Part shown: one piece after another, positions 15,701 to 60,207 of the stretch
How positions within the stretch are numbered: position 1 is the stretch's first letter
Layout: each line of letters opens with the position of its first letter
Assembly (NCBI GenBank): GCA_028724545.1
Contig: JAQYCU010000024.1
Coordinates: 62,001-126,000 of the forward strand
Direction: 5' to 3'
Origin: a bacterium
GTDB taxonomy: Bacteria; Bacillota; Clostridia; Lachnospirales; Lachnospiraceae
Length of the DNA stretch: 64,000 nt
Position numbers and translations under genes: made by a program
Notes under the pieces: generated by a model
The model's input: only the letters and a program-made list of their open reading frames with translations
What the model was told of the DNA's origin: nothing
Database searches by the model: none

Positions 15701-17545
15701 ATGAAAAACATTGAGTTTACTGTAGAACAAGTTGAGATACGTGGATGGAAACTTTGGATATCGGTTAATATCCGGGGAGAATATGATAACCGTGTCCGGA
15801 ACCCAAAAGTTGCCGTTATCTTTAACAGTGGAACGCAGACACGAAGAGTACCGGTTGTCATCCGGTCCTATACGGAAAAAAATGGAGAATTTTTAATCTA
15901 TGCACAATATTCATATGATGTGCGCTACATTTTTTATCATGAACCACTAGGCAGACAAATCAATTTCTGGTTTGATGTGATGTATGGTGATGATTATTAT
16001 GAACATATTTCGTACCGGTTAGGTGAAATTGCAAATCAGGAATATGGTCTGGAAGATTCAGAGGCTTCCGAGGAAGCAGATGAAGATGAGGAAGAAGAAG
16101 GAACAACACGTGGTGGATACTATGATATTGTTTTTTCAACAGAAAAGTCAGAAATTGATTTGATTGCACGTTTTGATACTTCTGCACCGTCACTATTTTC
16201 CAGAGCCGTAGGAAAAGTTCGTGCATTTGTAGGAAAACTATGGGGAGCCGTTCTGTTTCTGATGGGATTTCTGCTTCTTCCGGTCTTTTTTGTAGATGCA
16301 TTGCTTGCAGTGCTAAAATGTATTCCACGAAAAGAAGAAATTGCCGGAAGCAATTGGATTATTTATTTGATAAAACACGCCCGTTGGAAATGGACTGTTT
16401 TTTGTAAGATGCAGATTGGTATTCTGCCAATGAAACTGAGCTGTATGCGTCTGGCGAACAAAATCGCTTCCTGGTTCCCGGTTAAGAAAAACAGAATTGC
16501 ATTTCTGTCTAACAGAAGAAATGATTTAAGTGGAAACTTTGAATTTGTATATGACATATTAAAAGAAGATGAATCGTTAGATATCCGTTTTGTATTGGAC
16601 AACCATGATACGAAGCATATGAAATTCAGAAATATGATTCGTCTGGCAATTTATTTTGCCAACTCTAAAATCATTCTGGTTGACGATTATATGGAACTGC
16701 TGTTTAAACTGCCAAGAAGGGAAGGCACGACGCTGATTCAGTTGTGGCATGCCTGTGGCGCATTTAAAACATTTGGATGCAGCCGTATGGGTAAAAGTGG
16801 TGGACAGGGCTTGCAAAGTCCAAATCACCGTAGTTATGATTTTGCAACAGTCAGTTCACAGGAGATAGCCAAATTCTACGCAGAAGGATTTGGTCTGTCA
16901 TTGGAAAAAGTGGTTGCAACGGGTGTTCCTCGTACTGATATTTTCTTTGACAAAGCGTATAAGAAAAAAGTGGTGCGTCAGTTCTATAAGAAATACCCAC
17001 AGTTAAAAGACAAAAAGATTCTTCTGTTTGCACCGACATTTCGTGGTAATGGAAAGAATACCGGTTATTATCCGGTAGAACTGTTTGATGTCAATAAGCT
17101 GTATGAGCAGCTGGGTGGAGAATATGCAATTATTGTAAAACATCATCCTTTTGTAAAGAACAGAAATCCGATTCAGGAAGAGTATCAGGATTATATTATC
17201 GATTTATCTAAAAACTCCGAATTGAATGATTTGCTGTTTGTAACGGATGCGCTGATTACTGACTATTCTTCCGTTGTGTTTGAAGCGTCGCTTCTGGATA
17301 TCCCAATGCTGTTTTATGTATTTGATTTGGAGCAGTATATCGCAACAAGAGGATTTTATTACGAATATGAAACGTTCGTTCCAGGAAAAATCGTATATCA
17401 TTTTGATGAAATCGCATCTGCTGTTAAGCAGAATGATTTTGAGCAGGAAAAGATTGAGCCATTCAAAGAACGTTTCTTCGATGGAAAAGATGGTAAGAGT
17501 GCCGAGCGCACGGTAGAGTTGATTTATGACAATTTAAAAAAATAA
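15701..17545 (+). CDS. CDP-glycerol/ribitol polyol-phosphate transferase, TagF-like
   Basis: Adds glycerol- or ribitol-phosphate units to a teichoic-acid-like chain at the cytoplasmic membrane. The 614-residue protein has a beta-rich N-terminal region (about 1-110), an acidic linker (about 112-138), a hydrophobic amphipathic segment (about 180-212), then a CDP-glycerol glycerophosphotransferase domain (about 260-610). The latter has LWHACGAFKTFG with the catalytic His, TGVPRTD, LLFAPTFRGNG and LITDYSSVVFEASLLDIP. All expected motifs are present. GAGGTGAAAC precedes the ATG. It is followed after 27 bases by leuC and then tarI-tarJ in the same direction. Confidence 0.88.
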   Translation: MKNIEFTVEQVEIRGWKLWISVNIRGEYDNRVRNPKVAVIFNSGTQTRRVPVVIRSYTEKNGEFLIYAQYSYDVRYIFYHEPLGRQINFWFDVMYGDDYYEHISYRLGEIANQEYGLEDSEASEEADEDEEEEGTTRGGYYDIVFSTEKSEIDLIARFDTSAPSLFSRAVGKVRAFVGKLWGAVLFLMGFLLLPVFFVDALLAVLKCIPRKEEIAGSNWIIYLIKHARWKWTVFCKMQIGILPMKLSCMRLANKIASWFPVKKNRIAFLSNRRNDLSGNFEFVYDILKEDESLDIRFVLDNHDTKHMKFRNMIRLAIYFANSKIILVDDYMELLFKLPRREGTTLIQLWHACGAFKTFGCSRMGKSGGQGLQSPNHRSYDFATVSSQEIAKFYAEGFGLSLEKVVATGVPRTDIFFDKAYKKKVVRQFYKKYPQLKDKKILLFAPTFRGNGKNTGYYPVELFDVNKLYEQLGGEYAIIVKHHPFVKNRNPIQEEYQDYIIDLSKNSELNDLLFVTDALITDYSSVVFEASLLDIPMLFYVFDLEQYIATRGFYYEYETFVPGKIVYHFDEIASAVKQNDFEQEKIEPFKERFFDGKDGKSAERTVELIYDNLKK

Positions 17546-17572: not shown

Positions 17573-18838
17573 ATGGGAATGACAATGACACAGAAAATTC
17601 TGGCAGCACATGCAGGATTACCTTCTGTAGAAGCAGGGCAGTTAATTGAGGCAAATTTGGATTTAGTACTTGCCAATGATATTACAGGACCGGTTGCAAT
17701 TCATGAAGTAGAAAAATTGAACAAAAAAACAGTTTTTGACAAAGATAAGGTCGCACTGGTACCGGACCACTTTGCTCCAAATAAAGATATTAAGTCTGCA
17801 GAGCATTGCAAATGTGTCAGAGAATATGCAAAAGAGCATGATATTACAAATTATTTTGAAGTAGGACAGATGGGTATTGAGCATGCACTTCTTCCTGAAA
17901 AAGGTTTGATTGTAGCAGGCGAAACCTGTATCGGTGCAGACTCACATACTTGTACTTATGGCGCACTGGGTGCATTTTCTACCGGTGTCGGAAGTACAGA
18001 TATGGGTTGTGGCATGATTACAGGACAGGCATGGTTTAAAGTACCATCTGCCATCAAATTTGTTTTAACGGGAAAACCTTCCAAGTGGGTAAGTGGAAAA
18101 GATGTTATTCTGCACATTATCGGAATGATTGGTGTAGACGGTGCTTTATATAAGTCAATGGAATTTGTAGGGGATGGCATTGCAAACTTATCTATGGATG
18201 ACCGTTTCACAATTGCAAATATGGCAATTGAAGCAGGTGCCAAGAATGGCATTTTCCCAGTTGATGAGAAAACAATTGCTTATATGGAAGAACATTCTAC
18301 AAAGCCATATACGGTATATGAAGCAGATGAAGATGCTGTATATGATGCAGAATACACCATTGATTTAAGCAAACTGGAACCGACGGTAGCATTTCCACAT
18401 CTTCCGGAAAATACTAAGACTGTTCGTGAAGCAGGAGAAGTTGCCATTGACCAGGTAGTAATTGGTTCTTGTACAAATGGACGTATTGAAGATTTACGGG
18501 TAGCAGCAAAAGTTTTAGAAGGAAGAAAAGTTGCTGACGGCATCCGTGTTATTGTGATTCCTGCTACACAGGCAATTTATATGCAGGCAATTGAGGAAGG
18601 GTTAGTTCAGACATTTATTAATGCAGGTGCTATTGTGAGTACACCAACCTGTGGACCTTGTCTTGGTGGATATATGGGTATCCTTGCAGCAGGTGAAAGA
18701 GCTATTTCCACTACGAACCGTAACTTTGTCGGACGTATGGGACATGTGGATTCAGAAGTATATCTGGCAAGTCCGGCAGTTGCAGCAGCAAGTGCCGTTA
18801 CCGGAAAGATTTCACAGCCTTCCGATTTAGGATTATAA
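17573..18838 (+). CDS. leuC: 3-Isopropylmalate dehydratase large subunit
   Basis: Catalyses isomerisation of 2- to 3-isopropylmalate in leucine synthesis together with LeuD. The 421-residue length matches the short HacA-like LeuC type. It has the 4Fe-4S ligand cysteines in [11 protein letters not shown] and [10 protein letters not shown], plus the N-terminal [12 protein letters not shown] segment. GGAGG sits correctly before the ATG. There is no leucine T-box or own promoter obvious in the 27-base gap, so it seems to be read with the upstream polymer transferase. leuA and leuB are not in the window. Confidence 0.93.
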
Positions 18839-18861
18839 AAGAATAGCAAAACAAATAAAAA

Positions 18862-18920
18862 GAAACGATATTTTGTCGTTTCCAGCCGGTCGGCAAATGC
18901 ACTGTATCACTGACCGGCTG
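18862..18920 (+). terminator. Two hairpins in the leuC-leuD spacer
   Basis: A 7-bp hairpin (18862-18868 with 18876-18882) is followed directly by a 9-bp GC-rich hairpin (18883-18891 with 18912-18920). No T-run follows, so attenuation or mRNA processing between leuC and leuD is as likely as termination. Confidence 0.45.
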
Positions 18921-18954
18921 ATAAAACAGCGACAGTGCAGAAAAGAGGTAAAAT

Positions 18955-19443
18955 ATGAAAGCATGTGGTACTGTTCATAAATATGGCGATAATGTAGATA
19001 CAGATGTTATCATTCCGGCAAGATATTTAAATTCTTCTGACCCGGCAGAACTGGCAAAAAGCTGTATGGAAGATATTGACCCGGATTTTGTAAAGCGTGT
19101 CAAAAAAGGAGATATTATGGTAGCCAATAAGAATTTTGGCTGTGGTTCTTCCAGAGAGCATGCGCCGATTGCAATCAAGGCTTCTGGTATTGGTTGCGTT
19201 ATCGCAGAAACATTTGCACGTATTTTTTACAGAAATGCAATTAATATCGGACTTCCAATTATCGAGTGTCCGGAAGCAGCAAAAGAGATTGAAGCCGGTG
19301 ATACGGTAGAAATTGATTTTGACAGTGGAATGATTTATGATAAGACAAAAGGGACAGAATATAAAGGTCAGGCTTTCCCACCATTTATGCAGAAAATTAT
19401 TGAGTCAGAGGGTCTGATTAACTACATTAACGAGAATAAGTAG
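18955..19443 (+). CDS. leuD: 3-Isopropylmalate dehydratase small subunit
   Basis: Partner of LeuC, supplying the swivel domain of the aconitase-like enzyme. The 162-residue protein matches the short LeuD type. It has [16 protein letters not shown] near the N-terminus and the substrate loop [12 protein letters not shown], and ends with the [18 protein letters not shown] region. AGAGGTAAAAT precedes the ATG. The next gene, tarI, starts 19 bases downstream, so leuCD lie inside a wall-polymer gene run. Confidence 0.93.
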
Positions 19444-19462: not shown

Positions 19463-20182
19463 ATGGTATTTGGAGTGATTCTTGCCGGTGGTATCGGCAG
19501 TCGTATGGGAAATGTTGAAAAACCAAAGCAGTATTTAAAAGTAGGAGATAAGCCAATTATTATTCATACAATCGAAAAGTTTTTCGTACATGATGAATTT
19601 GTAAAACTGATTGTGCTTTGTCCTAAGCAATGGGTAGAAACTACAAAGAATCTGGTTCAGAAGTACCTCGGAGAGGGTGCAGAGCGTGTTGTTGTTTTAG
19701 AAGGTGGCAGCACAAGAAATGAAACAATTATGAATTCTATCAACTATATTGAAACAGAATATGGACTGGATGAGGAAACATTGATTGTAACGCATGATTC
19801 GGTTCGTCCTTTCCTGACATACCGTATTATTGAAGAAAATATTAAATATGGTAAAATGTATGGTGCCGTAGATACTGTTATTCCGGCAACAGATACTATT
19901 GTAGAAAGCCAGACGGGAGATGTGATTACATCCGTGCCTGACCGTAAAAATATGTATCAGGGACAGACTCCACAGACATTTAATGCAAAAAAATTAAAAG
20001 AACTGTATCTGTCATTATCAGAGGAAGAAAAAGACATTCTGACAGACGCTTCTAAGATTTTTGTTATTAAAGGCGAAAAAGTACATTTAGTACAGGGTGA
20101 AGTTTTCAATATTAAAATCACATATCCTTATGATTTGCGTGTTGCTGAATCACTGATTAAGGATGAAAAGAATATGAAATAG
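19463..20182 (+). CDS. tarI: D-ribitol-5-phosphate cytidylyltransferase (TarI/IspD family)
   Basis: Activates ribitol 5-phosphate to CDP-ribitol. The 239-residue protein has the nucleotidyltransferase signature LAGGIGSRMGNVEKPKQYL, the THDSVRPF segment and DRKNMYQGQTPQTF, as in IspD and TarI. Sequence alone does not separate IspD (isoprenoid) from TarI; the following TarJ-like reductase 13 bases downstream makes TarI the better call. AAGGAGG precedes the ATG. Confidence 0.85.
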   Translation: MVFGVILAGGIGSRMGNVEKPKQYLKVGDKPIIIHTIEKFFVHDEFVKLIVLCPKQWVETTKNLVQKYLGEGAERVVVLEGGSTRNETIMNSINYIETEYGLDEETLIVTHDSVRPFLTYRIIEENIKYGKMYGAVDTVIPATDTIVESQTGDVITSVPDRKNMYQGQTPQTFNAKKLKELYLSLSEEEKDILTDASKIFVIKGEKVHLVQGEVFNIKITYPYDLRVAESLIKDEKNMK

Positions 20183-20195
20183 AAGGGGAGAGCTT

Positions 20196-21221
20196 ATGTT
20201 AAATGCAGTATATCGTTTGGTAGCACCACGGCGTTTTGAAGTGGAATTTAATGATATTGATTTACAGGCAGGACAGATTATTGTCCGTCCGACACATTTA
20301 TCGATTTGCCATGCCGACCAGCGCTATTATCAGGGTTCACGTCCGGCAGAAATATTAAAACAGAAACTGCCTATGGCATTGATACATGAGGGCATAGGAG
20401 AAGTTGTCTATGACCCGACAGGAACATTCAAATGTGGCGATTCTGTCATTATGATACCAAATACGCCAACCGTAAAAGATGATGTGATAGCAGAAAACTA
20501 TTTACGTTCCAGCAAATTCCGTGCCAGTGGATTTGATGGATTTATGCAGGAACATGTTGCTTTGGCTCCGGACCGTGTGGTACCGTTGGATTCGTCAATT
20601 GATAAAGTGATTGCAGCATTTACAGAGTTAGTTTCCGTTAGTGTGCATGCAATTCGCCGGTTTGATTCCATTGCACATGCAAGAAGAAATGTAGTAGGTA
20701 TCTGGGGAGATGGTAACTTAGGTTACATTACGGCAATCTTTTTCAAAGCAATGTTCCCGGACACAAAATTATACATTTTCGGTGTTGACCAGGAAAAAAT
20801 GTCGCAATTTTCTTTTGCAGACGATACTTTTTCCGTTACCGATATTCCAGAGGATTTACTGATTGACCATGCTTTTGAATGCGTAGGAGGGGCTGCATCA
20901 CAAAAGGCAATCAATCAGATTATTGACCATATCCAGCCGGAGGGAACCATTTCGATTCTGGGTGTATCAGAATATCCTGTTCCAATCAATACCCGTATGG
21001 TTCTGGAAAAAGGACTTCGTATATTTGGAAGCAGTCGCAGTGGAAGAGAAGATTTTTTGAAAACCGTATCGTTGTATCAGGAGCATCCGGAAATTATTGG
21101 ATACCTGCGCAATATTGTCGGTGCACAGATTGAGGTTCACTCGATTGCTGATATGAATAAAGCGTTTGAAACAGATATTCATAAGAGCATTGGAAAGACA
21201 ATTATGATATGGAATCAATAG
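20196..21221 (+). CDS. tarJ: Ribulose-5-phosphate reductase (TarJ-like)
   Basis: NADPH- and zinc-dependent medium-chain dehydrogenase predicted to reduce ribulose 5-phosphate to ribitol 5-phosphate. The 341-residue protein has LSICHADQRYY with the zinc-ligand cysteine, the LIHEGIGEVV block, a GIWGDGNLGY nucleotide-binding turn and DHAFECVGG. The pairing with TarI matches known tarIJ operons. AAGGGGAG precedes the ATG. Confidence 0.88.
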   Translation: MLNAVYRLVAPRRFEVEFNDIDLQAGQIIVRPTHLSICHADQRYYQGSRPAEILKQKLPMALIHEGIGEVVYDPTGTFKCGDSVIMIPNTPTVKDDVIAENYLRSSKFRASGFDGFMQEHVALAPDRVVPLDSSIDKVIAAFTELVSVSVHAIRRFDSIAHARRNVVGIWGDGNLGYITAIFFKAMFPDTKLYIFGVDQEKMSQFSFADDTFSVTDIPEDLLIDHAFECVGGAASQKAINQIIDHIQPEGTISILGVSEYPVPINTRMVLEKGLRIFGSSRSGREDFLKTVSLYQEHPEIIGYLRNIVGAQIEVHSIADMNKAFETDIHKSIGKTIMIWNQ

Positions 21222-21266: not shown

Positions 21267-21320
21267 GTTATGAATGTGTTTTCATAGTTAATGACAAAGA
21301 GGTTGATGAGGGGAAGCAGT

Positions 21321-24300
21321 ATGGTAAAAGGAACGAACAAAGTGAAACAGATGGTTAAAAAAATAAAAAAGAAATTATCAAGGAAGACAGTTGCTAAGCA
21401 GCCGTCATATGACATCGAGATTACGCAGAAAGATAAGAATTTAGTCTGGGCATTTAATGCAGGACAGACTGGAAATGATTTCCGTGGTAATCCAAAGTAT
21501 CTTTTTATTTATATCAATAAATATCGTAAAGACATTACAGCATACTGGTTATGTGAAGATGAGCAGTTAGTCGAATTTATCCGTAATCTGGGATATCTGG
21601 CATACCAGCTGGGTACGGTAGAGGCAGAGTGTGCCATTAACCGGACCGGTGTATATGTAGCAGAGCAGGTAAAATTAGCTTTGCCGGGTGGTTTGGAAAA
21701 TGTTAAGTTTTTGAACCTGTATCACGGTGTCGGTGCTAAGGATGTAGAGCGTGTTCTGCTGACAGGTGGTCTGGCAGAAGGTCTTGCTAAGAAATATATT
21801 ATTCATAACAGCTTTTACCGGAATAACCAGTTATTCCTCTGTCCTTCGCCTATGATGGTAGATGACTTCAGAAGAATGTGTGGTGTGGATGAAGATAAAG
21901 TAGTAAGGGCAGGCTATCCGAGAAATATTTATCAGAAGTATTTCGATAAGATTGCTACATTTGACCATGATTTATTAGGTAAAAAAGGCTTGTCTGAGGA
22001 TTATAAGATTGCTGTCTACGCACCTACTTATCGTCAGGGACTCCAGAGTGATACGTTTACTCTGGCCATTCCGAATATGAAAAAGTTAATTGAGCACTGT
22101 AAGAAAAACAAAATTCTTTTTGTATTTAAAATGCATCCGTTAATGGAAAATGAGTTTGCATTTCTGAATGCAAAGGAAAATTATGAAGACAGTCCATATC
22201 TTTATTTCTGGGATAACAAAGATGATATTTATGAGATTATAGACCAGATTGACTTGGCTATTGTCGATTATTCCTCTATTTTCACGGATTTTGTCAGTGC
22301 CGGTGTGCCACATTATATCCGTTATGTGTTTGATTATGACGAGGCTGTTTTAGGCTTAAATCATGATTATATGGAAGTTACAACAGGTGCTTTGTGCTAT
22401 TCCTTTGATGAATTGTTATCAGCAATTGATAATTACCATAATGTATCGGATGAGGAAGGTTATCAGAGAATTTCTGACTTATATTGGAAATATTCTGACA
22501 AGGATTCCTTTGAAAAGATTATTGACCAGACGCTGGAATTTGTGCCTCAGAAGCGCGAATTTCCGACTTTGTACAGTTTTGATATATTTGACACCCTGAT
22601 ATCCAGAAAAGTACTTGCACCAAGAGGTATTTTCTATCTGGTGCAGGAGCGCATGAAACAGAGTGATTTGCAGTTCCCAGCCTATCTGGTGGAAAACTAT
22701 CCTTTGATTCGTGTCTTTACAGAAAATGATGTTCGTGAATATTATCATAAAACACTGGAAGAGCGTGAAGATGAGCGACGCGAAATTTTTATGGTTGATA
22801 TTTTTGAAAAAATGCAGACCATTTATAATCTGACAGACGAACAGACAGCATTTTTGATGGAAACAGAACAGCAGGAAGAAATCGAGAATACCATTCCTGT
22901 CCAGGAAAATGTTGACTACTTTAAGCAGTTAGTATCAGCAGGAGAAACGGTTGTTTTAATCAGTGATATGTATCTGCCAAAAGATATTATTTTAAAAATG
23001 CTCCACAAGGTAGACCCTATGCTTTGTGAAGTGCCATTATTCCTCTCCAGCGAATATGGTGTGCAGAAAACAACAAAGAAGTTATTCCTGGAAGTATATA
23101 AGAGTTTCAAGCCGTTTTATGATTTTGGCAAATGGATTCATATCGGTGATACGCAGTTCCCGGATGTTACAATGCCTAGAAAACTCGGCATTATTGCCAA
23201 CAAGGTAATTAAACCGGAGTTTAATGAATATGAGAAGAGATTAGTTGAAGAACTGGATTCTTATGATGCTTACTTAGTTGCAGCATTGTTTGCACGATTC
23301 CGTGAAAAACATATTTTTGATAAGCAGCAGTTCGCATATTCATATGCTTCGCTTTGTTTTGTACCATATATTAACTGGGTAATAGACGATGCACTGGAGC
23401 GTGGATACCAGACTTTGTACTTTATCTCACGCGATGGCCATCATCTGAAACGGATTGCAGATGAAATGATTCGCATTCGTGGTCTTTCCTTAAAGACAAA
23501 ATATATTTATGCATCACGCCGTGCATGGCGACTGCCATCTCTTATTGATGAGATTGATGATGGTTTCTGGAGAAGTTATGGTAACTTCTCTGGTGTATCT
23601 GACTTTGAGAAACTGTTAAAAGCAATGGGAATGGATGAGGCGTTATTCCAGAAAATGTTCCCAGAGTTAATGGGACTCAAAGAAAAAGAAGTAATAGAAC
23701 CGGATGAAAAAGAAAGAGTAGTAGAAATCTTAAAGAACTCAAAAGAATACAATGATTACCTTTTGGCAAAAGCGAAGGAAGACCGTGTTAGTGTCTGCGG
23801 ATATTTAGAGCAGCAGATTGACCGGAATGAGAAATTTGCATTTGTAGAGTTCTGGGGACGTGGTTACACACAGGATTGCTTTACTATGCTCTGGAAGCAG
23901 ATTGCCGGACCGTATGCGAAGTCAGAATTTTATTATTCGCGTACAATATTGCCATCCCAGGGTGACAACATCCGTTATAATTTCACGGTAAATAGTGGAA
24001 GCCAGCTGTTTATTGAAGCCATTTTTGCCAATATGCCATATAAGAGTGTAGAATCTTATACAATGGACAAGGATGGAATGTACCAGCCGGATATTCATTC
24101 CTGTGATTATGATGTTGAGCTGTTTGATGATATGGAAAAATATCTGATTCAGTTTACAAGAGATTATTTGGAACTTCCTGTTTTGAACCGTGAGAAATTA
24201 AACCGGGAATTATTTGATTATATTCTGGAGTGCTACCGTAATTATCAGGATGACCCACTCTTTGTATCGACACTGGCACCACTTGTTGATTCCGTGGCAT

Positions 24301-25649
24301 TATACGGAAAGAAACGTGAGTTTGCCCCTAAGATTGATGCAAAAATGCTGGAAAGCATGCAGGAGGGTGAACCAAGAGGTAAGTTTACACGCAGTATGAA
24401 GATGTCACTTGCCCGGACAGATGATAATACAAAACAGCAGTATTTAGAAATGTATCAGTTACAACCGGACGATAATCCAAACTCCGGAAGACTGATTGCA
24501 GAAAACAGACAACATAGCAATGCGCATTATCGCAGATTGGCTGATGCACATATCTTACGCCAGCAGCGTATTCAGGCAAAATATAATGCCATTGTTGATG
24601 ATGTGCAGGTAGAAAAGAAAATTCTTGTGCTTACGGGTGCAAAGGACTTTAAGGGTACTGTTTTCTATAGCCTGAATAAAGAATTAAAGAAGCAGGATGA
24701 ATATGAGGTTGTTAAAATCTCGATGAAGACAGATAAAATGCCGGAAGAAGAATTAGTAAGGCTGATTGCTTCTGCCATGTATATTATTGTTGCCAAGAAT
24801 ATGTCTATTCTCAGTAAATTAAAATTGCGTACGGAAACGCAGATTATTGTATTAAACAGTTATCCGTTCCCATACTGGAAGAAACTTCTTGCGAAGAATT
24901 ATCCGTTAAAGGAACAGAACCGTCTGATGAAAATGAGATTAGATATGCAGGTAGACCAGTTAATGTGTCCTTCGGAAAAATTAGTTCCGATTATCAAGGA
25001 AATGTATGGTGTACAGCATCGCTGTAGTTTTGAAATCTTTGGAAACTGTGCTACTGATATTTATTTTGACAGACATTTCATTGACAATGCCTGGGCAAAA
25101 TTATGGCGTGTTTTCCCTGAGGCAGAAGGAAAGAAAGTTATTCTGTATATTCCTAGAAAACGTGTTCGTAATACGGAAAGCACATATAAGGCTTTTATCG
25201 ATTTGGAAGAATTGCGTGAAAAGTTAGGCGATGATTATGTCGTTGTTTCTTATGTCAAACTTTTGAAACGAGATGTGGCACAATCCCTGGAACTGGAAGG
25301 ATTTGCCAAAAATGTTGCAGGCAGTATGATACTTCGTGAGGCTATCTGCGCCTGTGATTATGTAGTAGGTGATTACAGAGAAAGTTTATTTGAAGTACCA
25401 TTGCTGCATAAACCGGTTTATATGATGGCTTCCGATTGGAAAGAGTATTTACAGAATAAAAGCATTATTTACCCATATGATGAAGTTCAGATTGGACCAT
25501 TAGTGAATGGAATTGATGAATTGGTCGAACAAATAAATAATGTGGACTCTTATGATTATTCTTTGTCAGAAAGATTCCGTGAGAAATATTTGACATACTG
25601 TGATGGTAAGTCAGCAAAAAGACTTATGAAATATATATTAAAGAAATAA
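21321..25649 (+). CDS. Tri-domain wall-polymer protein: GPT, HAD-like, degenerate GPT
   Basis: A 1442-residue protein with a basic N-terminus (about 1-30). Domain 1 (about 35-400) is a CDP-glycerol/ribitol phosphotransferase with catalytic His135 in LYHGVGAK, AVYAPTYRQG and IVDYSSIFTDF (Asp316). Domain 2 (from about 415) is HAD-like with SFDIFDTLISR (Asp421; Phe423 at the usual general-acid position), LISDMYLP and HIGDTQFPD, followed to about 1090 by a segment with LYFISRDGHHL, as in the COG5610 HAD group. Domain 3 (about 1105-1442) resembles a second GPT, but the His motif reads VLNSYPFPYW and TDYSS reads GDYRES (1351-1355), so it is probably inactive. No membrane segment is seen. The start at 21321 follows GAGGGG; an upstream ATG at 21291 has no such site. 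Placement after tarIJ suggests ribitol-phosphate polymerisation; the role of the HAD part is unknown. Confidence 0.8.
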   Translation: MVKGTNKVKQMVKKIKKKLSRKTVAKQPSYDIEITQKDKNLVWAFNAGQTGNDFRGNPKYLFIYINKYRKDITAYWLCEDEQLVEFIRNLGYLAYQLGTVEAECAINRTGVYVAEQVKLALPGGLENVKFLNLYHGVGAKDVERVLLTGGLAEGLAKKYIIHNSFYRNNQLFLCPSPMMVDDFRRMCGVDEDKVVRAGYPRNIYQKYFDKIATFDHDLLGKKGLSEDYKIAVYAPTYRQGLQSDTFTLAIPNMKKLIEHCKKNKILFVFKMHPLMENEFAFLNAKENYEDSPYLYFWDNKDDIYEIIDQIDLAIVDYSSIFTDFVSAGVPHYIRYVFDYDEAVLGLNHDYMEVTTGALCYSFDELLSAIDNYHNVSDEEGYQRISDLYWKYSDKDSFEKIIDQTLEFVPQKREFPTLYSFDIFDTLISRKVLAPRGIFYLVQERMKQSDLQFPAYLVENYPLIRVFTENDVREYYHKTLEEREDERREIFMVDIFEKMQTIYNLTDEQTAFLMETEQQEEIENTIPVQENVDYFKQLVSAGETVVLISDMYLPKDIILKMLHKVDPMLCEVPLFLSSEYGVQKTTKKLFLEVYKSFKPFYDFGKWIHIGDTQFPDVTMPRKLGIIANKVIKPEFNEYEKRLVEELDSYDAYLVAALFARFREKHIFDKQQFAYSYASLCFVPYINWVIDDALERGYQTLYFISRDGHHLKRIADEMIRIRGLSLKTKYIYASRRAWRLPSLIDEIDDGFWRSYGNFSGVSDFEKLLKAMGMDEALFQKMFPELMGLKEKEVIEPDEKERVVEILKNSKEYNDYLLAKAKEDRVSVCGYLEQQIDRNEKFAFVEFWGRGYTQDCFTMLWKQIAGPYAKSEFYYSRTILPSQGDNIRYNFTVNSGSQLFIEAIFANMPYKSVESYTMDKDGMYQPDIHSCDYDVELFDDMEKYLIQFTRDYLELPVLNREKLNRELFDYILECYRNYQDDPLFVSTLAPLVDSVALYGKKREFAPKIDAKMLESMQEGEPRGKFTRSMKMSLARTDDNTKQQYLEMYQLQPDDNPNSGRLIAENRQHSNAHYRRLADAHILRQQRIQAKYNAIVDDVQVEKKILVLTGAKDFKGTVFYSLNKELKKQDEYEVVKISMKTDKMPEEELVRLIASAMYIIVAKNMSILSKLKLRTETQIIVLNSYPFPYWKKLLAKNYPLKEQNRLMKMRLDMQVDQLMCPSEKLVPIIKEMYGVQHRCSFEIFGNCATDIYFDRHFIDNAWAKLWRVFPEAEGKKVILYIPRKRVRNTESTYKAFIDLEELREKLGDDYVVVSYVKLLKRDVAQSLELEGFAKNVAGSMILREAICACDYVVGDYRESLFEVPLLHKPVYMMASDWKEYLQNKSIIYPYDEVQIGPLVNGIDELVEQINNVDSYDYSLSERFREKYLTYCDGKSAKRLMKYILKK

Positions 25650-46670: not shown

Positions 46671-48830
46671 CTATGCACGAATATCGAAAGAAAAGCGTTT
46701 CATATCTGCCGTTGCATGCGTATTTACTTTTGTATTAATAAAGTCGTCTACGGTAGGAGATGGCTGTTCTTTTTCCTGCACATGCATCCTGCACTGGTAT
46801 CCATGACGACTTAAAGCATCTTTTAACATATCAGCATTGACTTCGAGCAAATGCACAGAATCCGAATCATTTAATAAAAAGTCGGCATTGATATCCTGTC
46901 TGTTTTTATCGATTTTAATATCGATTTTTCCTAAATGCTCCATATCTAGATGGAGAAGAATGCTTGCCTTGTCCGGATTCTGCTGTAATTTCTCTTTTTT
47001 TGTATAAACATATAAATCTCCGTGTGCATCCTGACTTGGCAGTTTTAAAGGCACCTGAAAATAAGAAAAGGTTTCATTTAATGTTTTCATAAAAGAAATA
47101 TTTTGTTCGATATTTTTTGCAAAACCACTTAACTGTGAGGAATCAGAACCACTCAGTGTACTTTGAATCAGATGCCGGTATTCTTTGACCTGAGAATGCA
47201 TTTTCGTATAAAAATCGGACAAATTTTCTTTTTGTAATTGTTCCGGAGTAACAGTCCAGGAACTTTGCAATTCACGCGCAAAGAGTTTTTCAAATACATT
47301 TGTCTGGAATAGTGCGCGTACGGATTCGCTGTCAGTCAGGGAAATGGTATTGTAGATAACCGTCAATACTTCCTTTGTGGTCGCTTCACCGGACACAATC
47401 TTTGACAGCAGGAAACGGCTGATTGGCATATTTTGTAAGGAATCGGCCAGTTGTGTTCTTTCTTTATCGGAAAGATAGCTGTTTAATAAGTCATTGCTGC
47501 GTGCGTAATTTTCATAAGTTCTTATTAAGGTATCCAAAGCGTGGTTTCCTGTTGTAGTACCGGAATAATCTGTTGCGGTGTTGCTTTTTAAAGAATTGAG
47601 TGTATCAGAAAACGTATTTTTGGCATTTTCTGATAATGTCTGCAACAATTTTCCGGCAAAAGAAAACCTGTTTTCTGATTTTCCTTCTATATTTTCGGCA
47701 TCCTGTTCTGCATTGGCAGTCTGATTGGAAATATTTTCTTCTGCACCCACGTCGGAAGTATCAGTTGTGGATAACTGAAGGATATTTTTGACATAATTTT
47801 CCGAAACGACAGGAGTGTCTGCTACTGTCGGCTCCAGTATTTCGCTTAACTGTGAAAATTGGGAAGCCAGGACAGAAGGGGAAGTATCCTGTGGCAGTTT
47901 TATGGTACCACCCGATACGGCATCCCGGAGAAGTGTTACGGCATCCTGCAAAGATAATGTTTTCTGGTTTAACTGTGCCGTGATATCCTCTGTCAGTGGA
48001 GTATCGGATAACATATCAGCAATTTCCGTTTGCACATCAGACGGAAGAAGGGCAATGGTAGCCGGCTCAGAACCGGAAGAAGACAGCCCGATAGAGAGCA
48101 TGCTTTTTCCAAAGTTTGCTACGGCATCAGCCTGACTGTTTGCTGCCAGTGCACTTAATAAAGAAGGAATATCTTTTGAAAAATTCTGTAACTGTTCTAA
48201 TAACTGATAGTTATCATTACGGTAATTGCTGAACTGACGGACAGAATCTTCGTTAATTTCCATCATAAGACGGTTCATTACAGCAAGTGTATTCATATCG
48301 GTTGTGTGGCAGTCATATGCCTGCTGCATTAAATTCTGAATGGAATCCCTGTTGATAGGCAGTAAATTGTCCATAAGGGCTTTTACTGTTGTCTGATTGT
48401 GCTCTGTGGCAGGAAGGTTTGCCTCGCTTAGTGCTTTATTGATTAAGGTACGTTCAGTATCGGTATATCCCTTTGTGACATTTTCAAGATAGAGCGTGCC
48501 CCCAGCAATATCAATCAGGCGAAATGCGCGTGTCTGTCCGATGGCATAGGTTGCACTGTCTGGAATGCATCCACGCACAATTGTATTATTTTCCAATGTG
48601 ATAGAAATTTCATTGTTTCTTAAATCTGTAATTTCACCACGCAGAATATCGCCCACATGCAGGGAAGAAGCACCTCTGGCTACGCCGTAATTGCTTGACA
48701 TTCCAACGGTTCTGCCGGGCTGGGAAGAAGCATTGTGCTGATTGGCAATCCGGCGTTGTGCTGCGTGCTGTGTACTGTTGCCGGATTGTTTATTCTGATT
48801 TGTCTGAAGTGGATTAACGCGCTGTTCCAT
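46671..48830 (-). CDS. Large protein with FliK-like hook-length C-terminal domain
   Basis: A 719-residue protein. The N-terminus (about 1-50) is Gln/Asn/Ser-rich and disordered. Residues about 55-120 look like a small beta-barrel (LHVGDILRGEITDLRNNEIS). A long helical middle follows. About residues 610-680 (SILLHLDMEHLGKIDIKIDK to LKDALSRHGYQC) match the flagellar hook-length control C-terminal pattern. Related large proteins occur in Lachnospiraceae as an uncharacterised family. No other flagellar gene is in the window; a link to flagella is inferred from this domain and the PilZ neighbour. Confidence 0.55.
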   Translation of the reverse strand: MEQRVNPLQTNQNKQSGNSTQHAAQRRIANQHNASSQPGRTVGMSSNYGVARGASSLHVGDILRGEITDLRNNEISITLENNTIVRGCIPDSATYAIGQTRAFRLIDIAGGTLYLENVTKGYTDTERTLINKALSEANLPATEHNQTTVKALMDNLLPINRDSIQNLMQQAYDCHTTDMNTLAVMNRLMMEINEDSVRQFSNYRNDNYQLLEQLQNFSKDIPSLLSALAANSQADAVANFGKSMLSIGLSSSGSEPATIALLPSDVQTEIADMLSDTPLTEDITAQLNQKTLSLQDAVTLLRDAVSGGTIKLPQDTSPSVLASQFSQLSEILEPTVADTPVVSENYVKNILQLSTTDTSDVGAEENISNQTANAEQDAENIEGKSENRFSFAGKLLQTLSENAKNTFSDTLNSLKSNTATDYSGTTTGNHALDTLIRTYENYARSNDLLNSYLSDKERTQLADSLQNMPISRFLLSKIVSGEATTKEVLTVIYNTISLTDSESVRALFQTNVFEKLFARELQSSWTVTPEQLQKENLSDFYTKMHSQVKEYRHLIQSTLSGSDSSQLSGFAKNIEQNISFMKTLNETFSYFQVPLKLPSQDAHGDLYVYTKKEKLQQNPDKASILLHLDMEHLGKIDIKIDKNRQDINADFLLNDSDSVHLLEVNADMLKDALSRHGYQCRMHVQEKEQPSPTVDDFINTKVNTHATADMKRFSFDIRA

Positions 48831-58020: not shown

Positions 58021-58134
58021 CTTGTTATGATTTACATCTGTTCTCAGATGTATTCTGAAAGGTAGTGACAGATACCGGCAGGATTTTTATGGATGAAAAA
58101 GGCTTCCATTCTGTGGAGTAAGAGAGGGGAAACT

Positions 58135-60207
58135 ATGGAACAGAAGGATAGAAAAAGGTTTGACAAAAAAACAATAGAGAAATTTATTCAATATGGATTA
58201 CGGTATTTAGGGATTCCTATTGTATTAGAATTGATTATTGAGTCGCTAAATAGGAAATCAGTAGTAGAAGGTTTTCTGTATATGGTACACTGGCCGTCGC
58301 TATTTGTATTTAATACATTGATTATTATGCTGACCGTTTCCATTGCTATGTTTTTTAAACGTGAAATATTTGTTTTTACTACGATTTCTGCAGTATGGCT
58401 GATATTTGGCATTGTAAATTTTGTGATTTTGAATTTCAGGGTAACGCCATTTTCGGCAGTTGATATTACGCTGCTAGACAGTGCGCTCAGTGTGTCCAAT
58501 CACTATTTAAGTGCGCAGAATATAGCGATGATTGTACTGGCTGTCATAGTTGTAATTGTCAGTATTATCTGTTTATACCGGAAGGCACCAAAACATACGC
58601 ATATGACGCAGAAAAAGTTAGTGATTGCCGGAATTTCAGTAGCATTAATTGTAATGGCAATTTTTATTTTAAAAAGCAAGAGCAATTCTGTGCAGGCATT
58701 GTCAACAAAATATACCAATATTTCCGAGGCATATGAAAATTATGGTTTTGTATATTGTTTTACCAACAGTATTATTGATACGGGTATTTCTAAACCGGAG
58801 GATTACTCTAAGGAAAGTGTACAGAAAGTGATTTCCGGTTTACAGCAAAGCGAAAAGACAAACACGGTAAAACCAAATATTATTTTTGTGCAGTTAGAAT
58901 CATTTTTTGATGTGGATACCTTGAAATCCCTGAAATTGTCAGAGGATGCAATTCCGAATTTTCATAATTTACAGCAGAAGTATTCCGGTGGTCTTCTGAC
59001 GGTGCCGACTGTCGGAGCAGGAACAGTAAATACAGAATTTGAAGTGCTTACCGGAATGAGCCAGAAGGACTTTGGAACATCGGAATATCCGTACAAAACG
59101 GTTTTGCGTGATACTACTTCAGAAAGTATTTGCTATGATTTGAAATCGCTGGGTTACAGCAGTCATTGTGTTCATAATAACGAAGGTACTTTTTATGGAA
59201 GAAACAAAGTATTTGCCAATCTTGGCTTTGATACATTTACTTCTATGGAATTTATGAATGGACTGGAAGATAATCCAAACGGATGGAAAAAAGATAAAAC
59301 CCTGACGCAGGAAATTATCAATAAACTGGACTCTACGACGGGACCGGACTTTACAATGGGAATTACGGTGCAAAGTCACGGAAAATATGCCGGCTTTGAG
59401 GCAGATAAAAATGCAAAAATCAAAGTGAACCAGGCACCCGAAGGGATGGAAGATTCCTATGCATATTATGTTAATCAGCTGTATGAAGTAGACCAGATGA
59501 TTGGAGAACTGGTTACGGCATTGAACAATCGTCAGGAAAAAACGATTCTTGTTTTGTATGGGGACCATCTGCCAAGTCTGGATATCAAAAAAGAAGATTT
59601 GAAAGATACCAACTTATACCAGACGCAATATGTTGTATGGGATAATATGGGCCTTGCTAAAGAAAATAAAAATTTGAGTTCTTATCAGTTATATGCTGAG
59701 ATTCTTGACCGGGTGGGCATTCACGAAGGAAATATTACAAAGTTCCATCAGCAGGCAGAATGGAAGACGAAGACATATCATGAGAATTTAAAACTCTTAG
59801 AGTATGATATGTTATATGGTCAGAACTATGCTTATAATGAAAATAAACCATACCAGCCGACTAATTTACGGATGGGAACAAAGGCAATTACGATAAGTGA
59901 TGTTTCTAAAAACGAAAAAGGTTATCTGGTGACAGGCACGGGCTTTACACCGTATTGTTATGTGCTCTTCCAGGGAGATGACCTTTCGGCAGAATGGATA
60001 GATGAAAATCATATGCAGATTACCGAAGAAATATCATATGATACAGAGGCACAGCAGGAGCAGAGCCAGGAAAATACAACACAGGAGCAGGTTGAAAAGA
60101 AAAAGATACCAAATGCCTTTCTGATACAGGTTCAGACGGATGGTGGAACTGTTTTGGGAGAGAGCGAAGTAAAAAAATGGGAAGAAACTTCTCTTGCCAG
60201 ACAATAA
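58135..60207 (+). CDS. LtaS-like lipoteichoic acid synthase / phosphoglycerol transferase
   Basis: Predicted to polymerise or transfer glycerol phosphate from phosphatidylglycerol on the outer membrane face. The 690-residue protein has about five N-terminal membrane segments (to about residue 195), then a sulfatase-fold domain (about 240-560). This has FVQLESFFDVD, the nucleophile region VGAGTVNTEFEVLTG with the likely catalytic Thr, HNNEGTFYGR and LYGDHLPSLD. A C-terminal extension (about 580-690) contains a small beta domain and a Gln/Glu-rich linker not found in Bacillus LtaS. The start at 58135 follows GAGGGG. Confidence 0.85.
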   Translation: MEQKDRKRFDKKTIEKFIQYGLRYLGIPIVLELIIESLNRKSVVEGFLYMVHWPSLFVFNTLIIMLTVSIAMFFKREIFVFTTISAVWLIFGIVNFVILNFRVTPFSAVDITLLDSALSVSNHYLSAQNIAMIVLAVIVVIVSIICLYRKAPKHTHMTQKKLVIAGISVALIVMAIFILKSKSNSVQALSTKYTNISEAYENYGFVYCFTNSIIDTGISKPEDYSKESVQKVISGLQQSEKTNTVKPNIIFVQLESFFDVDTLKSLKLSEDAIPNFHNLQQKYSGGLLTVPTVGAGTVNTEFEVLTGMSQKDFGTSEYPYKTVLRDTTSESICYDLKSLGYSSHCVHNNEGTFYGRNKVFANLGFDTFTSMEFMNGLEDNPNGWKKDKTLTQEIINKLDSTTGPDFTMGITVQSHGKYAGFEADKNAKIKVNQAPEGMEDSYAYYVNQLYEVDQMIGELVTALNNRQEKTILVLYGDHLPSLDIKKEDLKDTNLYQTQYVVWDNMGLAKENKNLSSYQLYAEILDRVGIHEGNITKFHQQAEWKTKTYHENLKLLEYDMLYGQNYAYNENKPYQPTNLRMGTKAITISDVSKNEKGYLVTGTGFTPYCYVLFQGDDLSAEWIDENHMQITEEISYDTEAQQEQSQENTTQEQVEKKKIPNAFLIQVQTDGGTVLGESEVKKWEETSLARQ

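Follow-up and report, generated by a model that had tools for sequence, protein, structure and literature searches.

What does a bacterial protein of 1442 residues do when it carries an intact polyol-phosphate transferase (GPT) domain at one end and an apparently dead one at the other, and what could the dead domain be for? The question is raised by a 64,000-nucleotide stretch of DNA from a Lachnospiraceae-like bacterium (GenBank assembly GCA_028724545.1, contig JAQYCU010000024.1, positions 62,001 to 126,000; "the window" in what follows). Taken as a whole, the analysis favors a ribose-ribitol polymerase of the type of Bcs3, the capsule polymerase of Haemophilus influenzae type b (Hib) (PMC10299916), with a non-catalytic C-terminal domain that would hold the chain or its phosphates; we regard this reading as probable. 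What we infer about the activities, the product and the C-terminal role builds on the observations described below: homology, identical active-site residues, the surrounding genes, the fold, the lost motifs, a single origin and purifying selection. The gene and its parts are as follows.

21321..25649, + strand: Bcs3-type polymerase with a C-terminal pseudo-GPT domain, 1442 residues (intact open reading frame, Bcs3 homology, ortholog alignment)
21429..22544, + strand: CroT-like ribitol-phosphate transferase domain, residues 37-408 (Pfam, phmmer, active-site mapping)
22545..23204, + strand: CrpP-like HAD phosphatase domain, residues 409-628 (phmmer, active-site mapping)
23205..24443, + strand: CriT-like ribofuranosyltransferase domain, dependent on phosphoribosyl pyrophosphate (PRPP), residues 629-1041 (phmmer, active-site mapping)
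24444..24611, + strand: linker, residues 1042-1097, with a long predicted helix at 1061-1092 (predicted structure, alignment; no beta barrel)
24612..25649, + strand: C-terminal pseudo-GPT domain, residues 1098-1442, TarL/TagF fold (predicted structure, motif alignment, tree)

The open reading frame is uninterrupted from the ATG at 21321 to the stop codon ending at 25649. Starting at the in-frame ATG at 21291 would lengthen the protein by ten residues; the start at 21321 is the likelier one because GAGGGGA sits six bases 5' of it. Pfam PF04464 matches residues 37-403 (E 5.9e-71; the full-length score is 239.8 bits, with two stretches above the cut-off), confirming an earlier note on this DNA that had described a single protein with an N-terminal GPT. 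The NCBIfam models TarL and TarF match its C-terminus (residues 1133-1440 and 1269-1440, respectively).

Most of the protein has a published counterpart. Bcs3 (PDB 9h50 and 8a0c) aligns over residues 54-1041 (phmmer against PDB sequences, E about 2e-200). Identity is 40% across the 875 aligned positions that were counted; by domain it is 34% (CroT), 42% (CrpP) and, for the part of CriT that was mapped, 44%. Bcs3 itself is laid out as CroT (residues 1-373), CrpP (374-591), CriT (592-1036), an SH3b domain that binds the polymer (1037-1115) and amphipathic helices (PMC10299916). All 16 of the functional positions published for Bcs3 that were checked are identical in the window protein, and all are invariant among four orthologs (the window protein and three relatives). 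They are spread over CroT (H135, G138, K140 and H272, corresponding to Bcs3 H96, G99, K101 and H233), CrpP (D421 and K583; Bcs3 D386 and K548) and CriT (S703, R704, D705, S732, R733, R737, E843, T850, E899 and S909; Bcs3 S678, R679, D680, S707, R708, R712, E818, T825, E874 and S884). G99 of Bcs3 CroT marks the use of ribitol, not glycerol (PMC10299916). Judged by this alignment, residues 54-1041 very probably form a Bcs3-type core, with the CroT-CrpP-CriT order of Bcs3 (PDB 8a0c, 8a0m, 9h50, 9h5i; PMC10299916) and, as there, genes for CDP-ribitol supply nearby. The CroT-CrpP-CriT part is thus a known architecture, and most of the protein is not the undescribed wall-polymer machine that had been proposed. 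Multi-enzyme TagF-like polymerases, too, have been described before, namely Bcs3 (PMC10299916) and Cps3D (PMC11666461).

The HAD region reported earlier is real, being homologous to CrpP of Bcs3, and the region holds two enzymes, CriT (about residues 629-1041) having been overlooked. Motif I of the HAD domain does read DIFDTL, with Phe (F423) in place of the +2 Asp. This residue, which we counted apart from the 16 positions, is identical in active Bcs3, and of the two Asp in the motif I DxD, CrpP conserves the first alone (PMC10299916); by this comparison Phe is the normal state of a CrpP phosphatase and is not disabling. The suggestion that the HAD domain might trim, cap or edit the polymer was rejected as a first choice. 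It is unlikely because the domain agrees with CrpP at all residues checked, and CrpP is a phosphatase of the elongation cycle: in Bcs3 it strips the 5-phosphate from each PRPP-derived ribose once per cycle.

The gene neighborhood bears on the product, and three nearby features are relevant.

19463..20182, + strand: tarI, D-ribitol-5-phosphate cytidylyltransferase (NF001183, 363.8 bits, cut-off 166)
20196..21221, + strand: tarJ-type zinc alcohol dehydrogenase (position after tarI and fold; no specific NCBIfam name)
15701..17545, + strand: TarL-like polyol-phosphate transferase with active motifs intact (Pfam, NCBIfam, motif alignment)

A Bcs3-type locus contains CDP-ribitol synthesis genes (bcs1 in Hib); here tarI and tarJ stand directly upstream of the polymerase gene, and the likely product is therefore a ribofuranosyl-ribitol-phosphate polymer. 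In the proposed cycle, CriT would move ribofuranose-5-phosphate from PRPP onto the terminal ribitol of the chain, CrpP would take off the 5-phosphate, and CroT would add ribitol-5-phosphate from CDP-ribitol supplied by the adjoining TarI and TarJ. Repetition would yield the polymer for export to wall or capsule, with linkage positions that homology does not fix; the Hib and Escherichia coli K18 polymers differ in linkage only (PMC10299916). That the core instead makes another polymer (glycerol-phosphate or a non-PRPP glycan), its likeness to Bcs3 being one of fold alone, would fit with a linkage and acceptor not fixed by homology and with two orthologs unlinked to tarIJ. We consider this very improbable, as every checked active-site residue of CroT, CrpP and CriT is that of Bcs3, the ribitol-marker Gly included. 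Moreover, tarI and tarJ adjoin the gene both in the window and in L017, an ortholog from a Blautia sp. metagenome-assembled genome (MAG), where the neighbors also include a GPT, an ABC exporter pair, LicD and a bacterial sugar transferase.

Elsewhere in the same genome (G000 contig C15, L027:7086-8995) there is a second cytidylyltransferase paired with an SDR-type reductase, possibly a second CDP-alditol pathway besides tarI and tarJ. The TarL-like protein at 15701-17545 has about 250 N-terminal residues outside its GPT domain that have no Pfam match, and leuC- and leuD-like genes, recognized by eye from their translations, lie between it and tarI/tarJ (17573-19443).

What, then, is the C-terminus? 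Homology to Bcs3 stops at residue 1041. Unlike Bcs3, the window protein has neither an SH3b beta barrel nor C-terminal amphipathic helices; it continues with the helical linker and a GT-B domain of about 345 residues, in a gene context of Gram-positive type. An AlphaFold2 model of this domain, built on a seven-row alignment, has a mean predicted local distance difference test (pLDDT) score of 79.6. Its top matches among solved structures are TarL (Z 30.0, root-mean-square deviation 5.9, 367 residues) and TagF (Z 27.9, root-mean-square deviation 4.0, 355 residues), followed by Cps3D (24.9), the CroT domain of Bcs3 (22.6) and UDP-GlcNAc 2-epimerases (18.4). On the predicted structure it is a GT-B/GPT fold of the TarL/TagF family, and the fold on which the earlier note had staked its proposal for residues 1105-1442 is present.

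While the fold is shared with TarL and TagF (PDB 8va1, 3l7i; Z 28-30), the catalytic apparatus is not. In a MAFFT comparison with active GPTs (at 16-22% identity with the active sequences, which leaves the exact His columns somewhat uncertain), the catalytic pair corresponding to TagF H444 and H584 is gone: in the four orthologs the WHG His is Y, E, S or D and the HP-motif His is K, S, P or Q. No HP motif occurs anywhere in the four C-terminal domains, irrespective of how the His columns are aligned, and the Pro-Arg of GxPR is lost in all of them. The donor-phosphate motif TDYSS is replaced in 4/4 by GD[YF]R[ED] (GDYRE, GDYRD, GDYRE, GDFRD), with the loss of its CDP-contacting SS pair. The cleft residues P1278, R1281, D1351, R1353 and E1358 are kept and invariant, and four of them (P1278, R1281, D1351 and E1358) are donor-site elements still present. 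The pattern is that of a domain in which, to judge from its residues, transfer chemistry was given up and the cleft kept. The inactivation suspected earlier is upheld by motif losses common to the three other orthologs, and the domain is likely dead for polyol-phosphate transfer.

A live GT-B transferase with an altered donor or mechanism, serving for example in sugar decoration or in adding the first chain unit, could also retain an invariant cleft. Many GT-B glycosyltransferases need no TagF histidines, a Tyr in place of one of the two His leaves Cps7A active (PMC11666461), and the nearest folds below TagF and TarL are those of nucleotide-sugar enzymes. Nevertheless, Cps7A retains its second His, whereas here both positions are unconserved and the SS pair is missing, and sequence change in the domain has outpaced that in the protein's three catalytic domains (27-36% versus 48-62% identity among orthologs). 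Live transfer of this kind therefore strikes us as distinctly unlikely.

Could the tail be an accident of one genome? Searching for the same domain order, as the earlier note had advised, by profile and protein comparison identified full-length proteins of this layout in the window's genome and in L016, L017 and L018 only. A four-sequence profile run against a family sample of 397 genomes returned two full-length proteins (the window's own and G415, taken as the L018 record because the contigs are equally long), and samples at order, class and phylum level (about 1180 genome searches, overlapping) gave none beyond the window's own genome. The rarity is approximate, since the profile searches scored at most two candidates per genome; the contig scan for relatives (six exact peptides, three relatives) is insensitive. 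Between orthologs, codons of the C-terminal domain differ far less at position 2 (0.33-0.47) than at position 3 (0.66-0.71), which argues for purifying selection. A maximum-likelihood tree was built from 20 GPT domains, without the 604-residue L026 protein (GT2/GlfT2-like, no GPT) and one other long-branch row. In it, the four C-terminal domains are monophyletic (100/100) and group toward stand-alone TarL-like proteins, away from CroT. Their branching (window with L018, L016 with L017) is that of CroT from the same proteins. Monophyly, purifying selection and matching branching order together make one old fusion of a stand-alone TarL-like transferase, inherited with the rest of the protein since, the simplest reading of the sequences. 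A duplication of the N-terminal GPT was not supported, as the domain falls on the other side of the 100/100 branch, and a recent pseudogene or chance fusion was rejected because the domain is intact in four diverged genomes.

Disrupting SH3b abolishes the activity of Hib Bcs3 (PMC10299916), and the main reason for proposing the tail as a chain holder is that it is located exactly where the polymer-binding module is expected. Having lost transferase catalysis, the domain would most likely grip the anionic chain or its phosphates, or stabilize the dimer, in place of SH3b. That it holds the polymer directly, one of the roles suggested in the earlier note, is quite possible, although we would stop short of calling it probable. 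More tentative still is the specific proposal that a single recruitment turned a dead polyol-phosphate transferase into an internal clamp or ruler for the polymer, replacing SH3b and setting processivity or length for the three live domains of a Gram-positive enzyme whose product is a complex ribosyl-ribitol-phosphate wall polymer. Alternatively, the domain may be a structural or regulatory module (a dimer brace, a dock for membrane or partner, or a CDP/CMP sensor) that does not itself grip the chain. Bcs3 acts as a head-to-tail dimer (PMC10299916), a catalytically inactive TagF-like protein, Cps7A, nonetheless promotes its partner's synthesis of long chains (PMC11666461), and relatives exist that lack both tail and SH3b. 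We find this somewhat unlikely, however, because the altered yet invariant GD[YF]R[ED] site suggests that the cleft has retained a function.

Several observations weigh against a Bcs3-type polymerase with a C-terminal chain holder. Four clostridial Bcs3-like proteins (L012, L030, L031 and L002, the last a 1015-residue paralog in the window's own genome) share the CroT-CrpP-CriT core at about 39-50% identity per domain. Unlike the window protein, they end just after CriT HB-3. They apparently manage without SH3b and without the C-terminal domain; such proteins may therefore need no built-in grip on the polymer. The C-terminal domain is more basic than the core, yet an ordinary TarL domain is equally basic. 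An AlphaFold2 model of CriT with the C-terminal domain was poor (pLDDT 59.9, predicted template modelling score 0.41), too weak for placing the domain on CriT near the active sites. Neither the L016 nor the L018 gene is adjacent to tarIJ. In the L018 genome, a cytidylyltransferase lies beside an SDR-type reductase, a different type (G743:C69), and in the 1.6 Mb L016 MAG we detected a weak cytidylyltransferase match only, neither reductase type and no clear CDP-ribitol pathway.

The new part of the protein is its C-terminus, a pseudo-GPT of TarL/TagF fold in place of SH3b, kept by four diverged clostridial proteins. It differs from TarL and TagF in lacking both catalytic His and the TDYSS motif and in being fused behind three other enzymes. 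The TagF-like capsule polymerases Cps3D and Cps7D (PDB 8qoy; PMC11666461) are likewise multi-enzyme polymerases carrying a TagF-like domain; unlike the window protein, they have two active GT-B domains and a TPR region, with no CrpP or CriT and no pseudo-GPT. We found no publication describing a pseudo-GPT tail on a Bcs3-type enzyme, in a search that most subscription journals lay outside, and the list of Gram-positive homologs in the Bcs3 paper may include such proteins without comment.

The Bcs3 authors called the polymerases for complex Gram-positive wall teichoic acids unidentified, and left open whether Gram-positive Bcs3 homologs lie in wall teichoic acid clusters (PMC10299916). Here such homologs adjoin tarI and tarJ (in the window and in L017), and in L017 and at a second locus of the window's own genome they have TagGH-type ABC polysaccharide exporters as neighbors; they are thereby concrete candidates for such polymerases. 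With the pseudo-GPT tail, a simple truncation could test how polymerases hold or measure their chains. If the proposal is right, a dead polymerase domain would govern processivity or length for three live domains within one Gram-positive enzyme.

The second wall-polymer cluster of the same genome (G000 contig C50, L026:4459-12117) contains an ABC exporter pair and a GlfT2-like glycosyltransferase, and also encodes a 386-residue GPT and a 1015-residue Bcs3-like protein without SH3b or pseudo-GPT tail. Within the window, 58093-60207 encodes a sulfatase-fold protein (PF00884) that is a candidate LtaS-like enzyme, and 46671-48830 a 719-residue protein with a FliK C-terminal (Flg_hook) domain.

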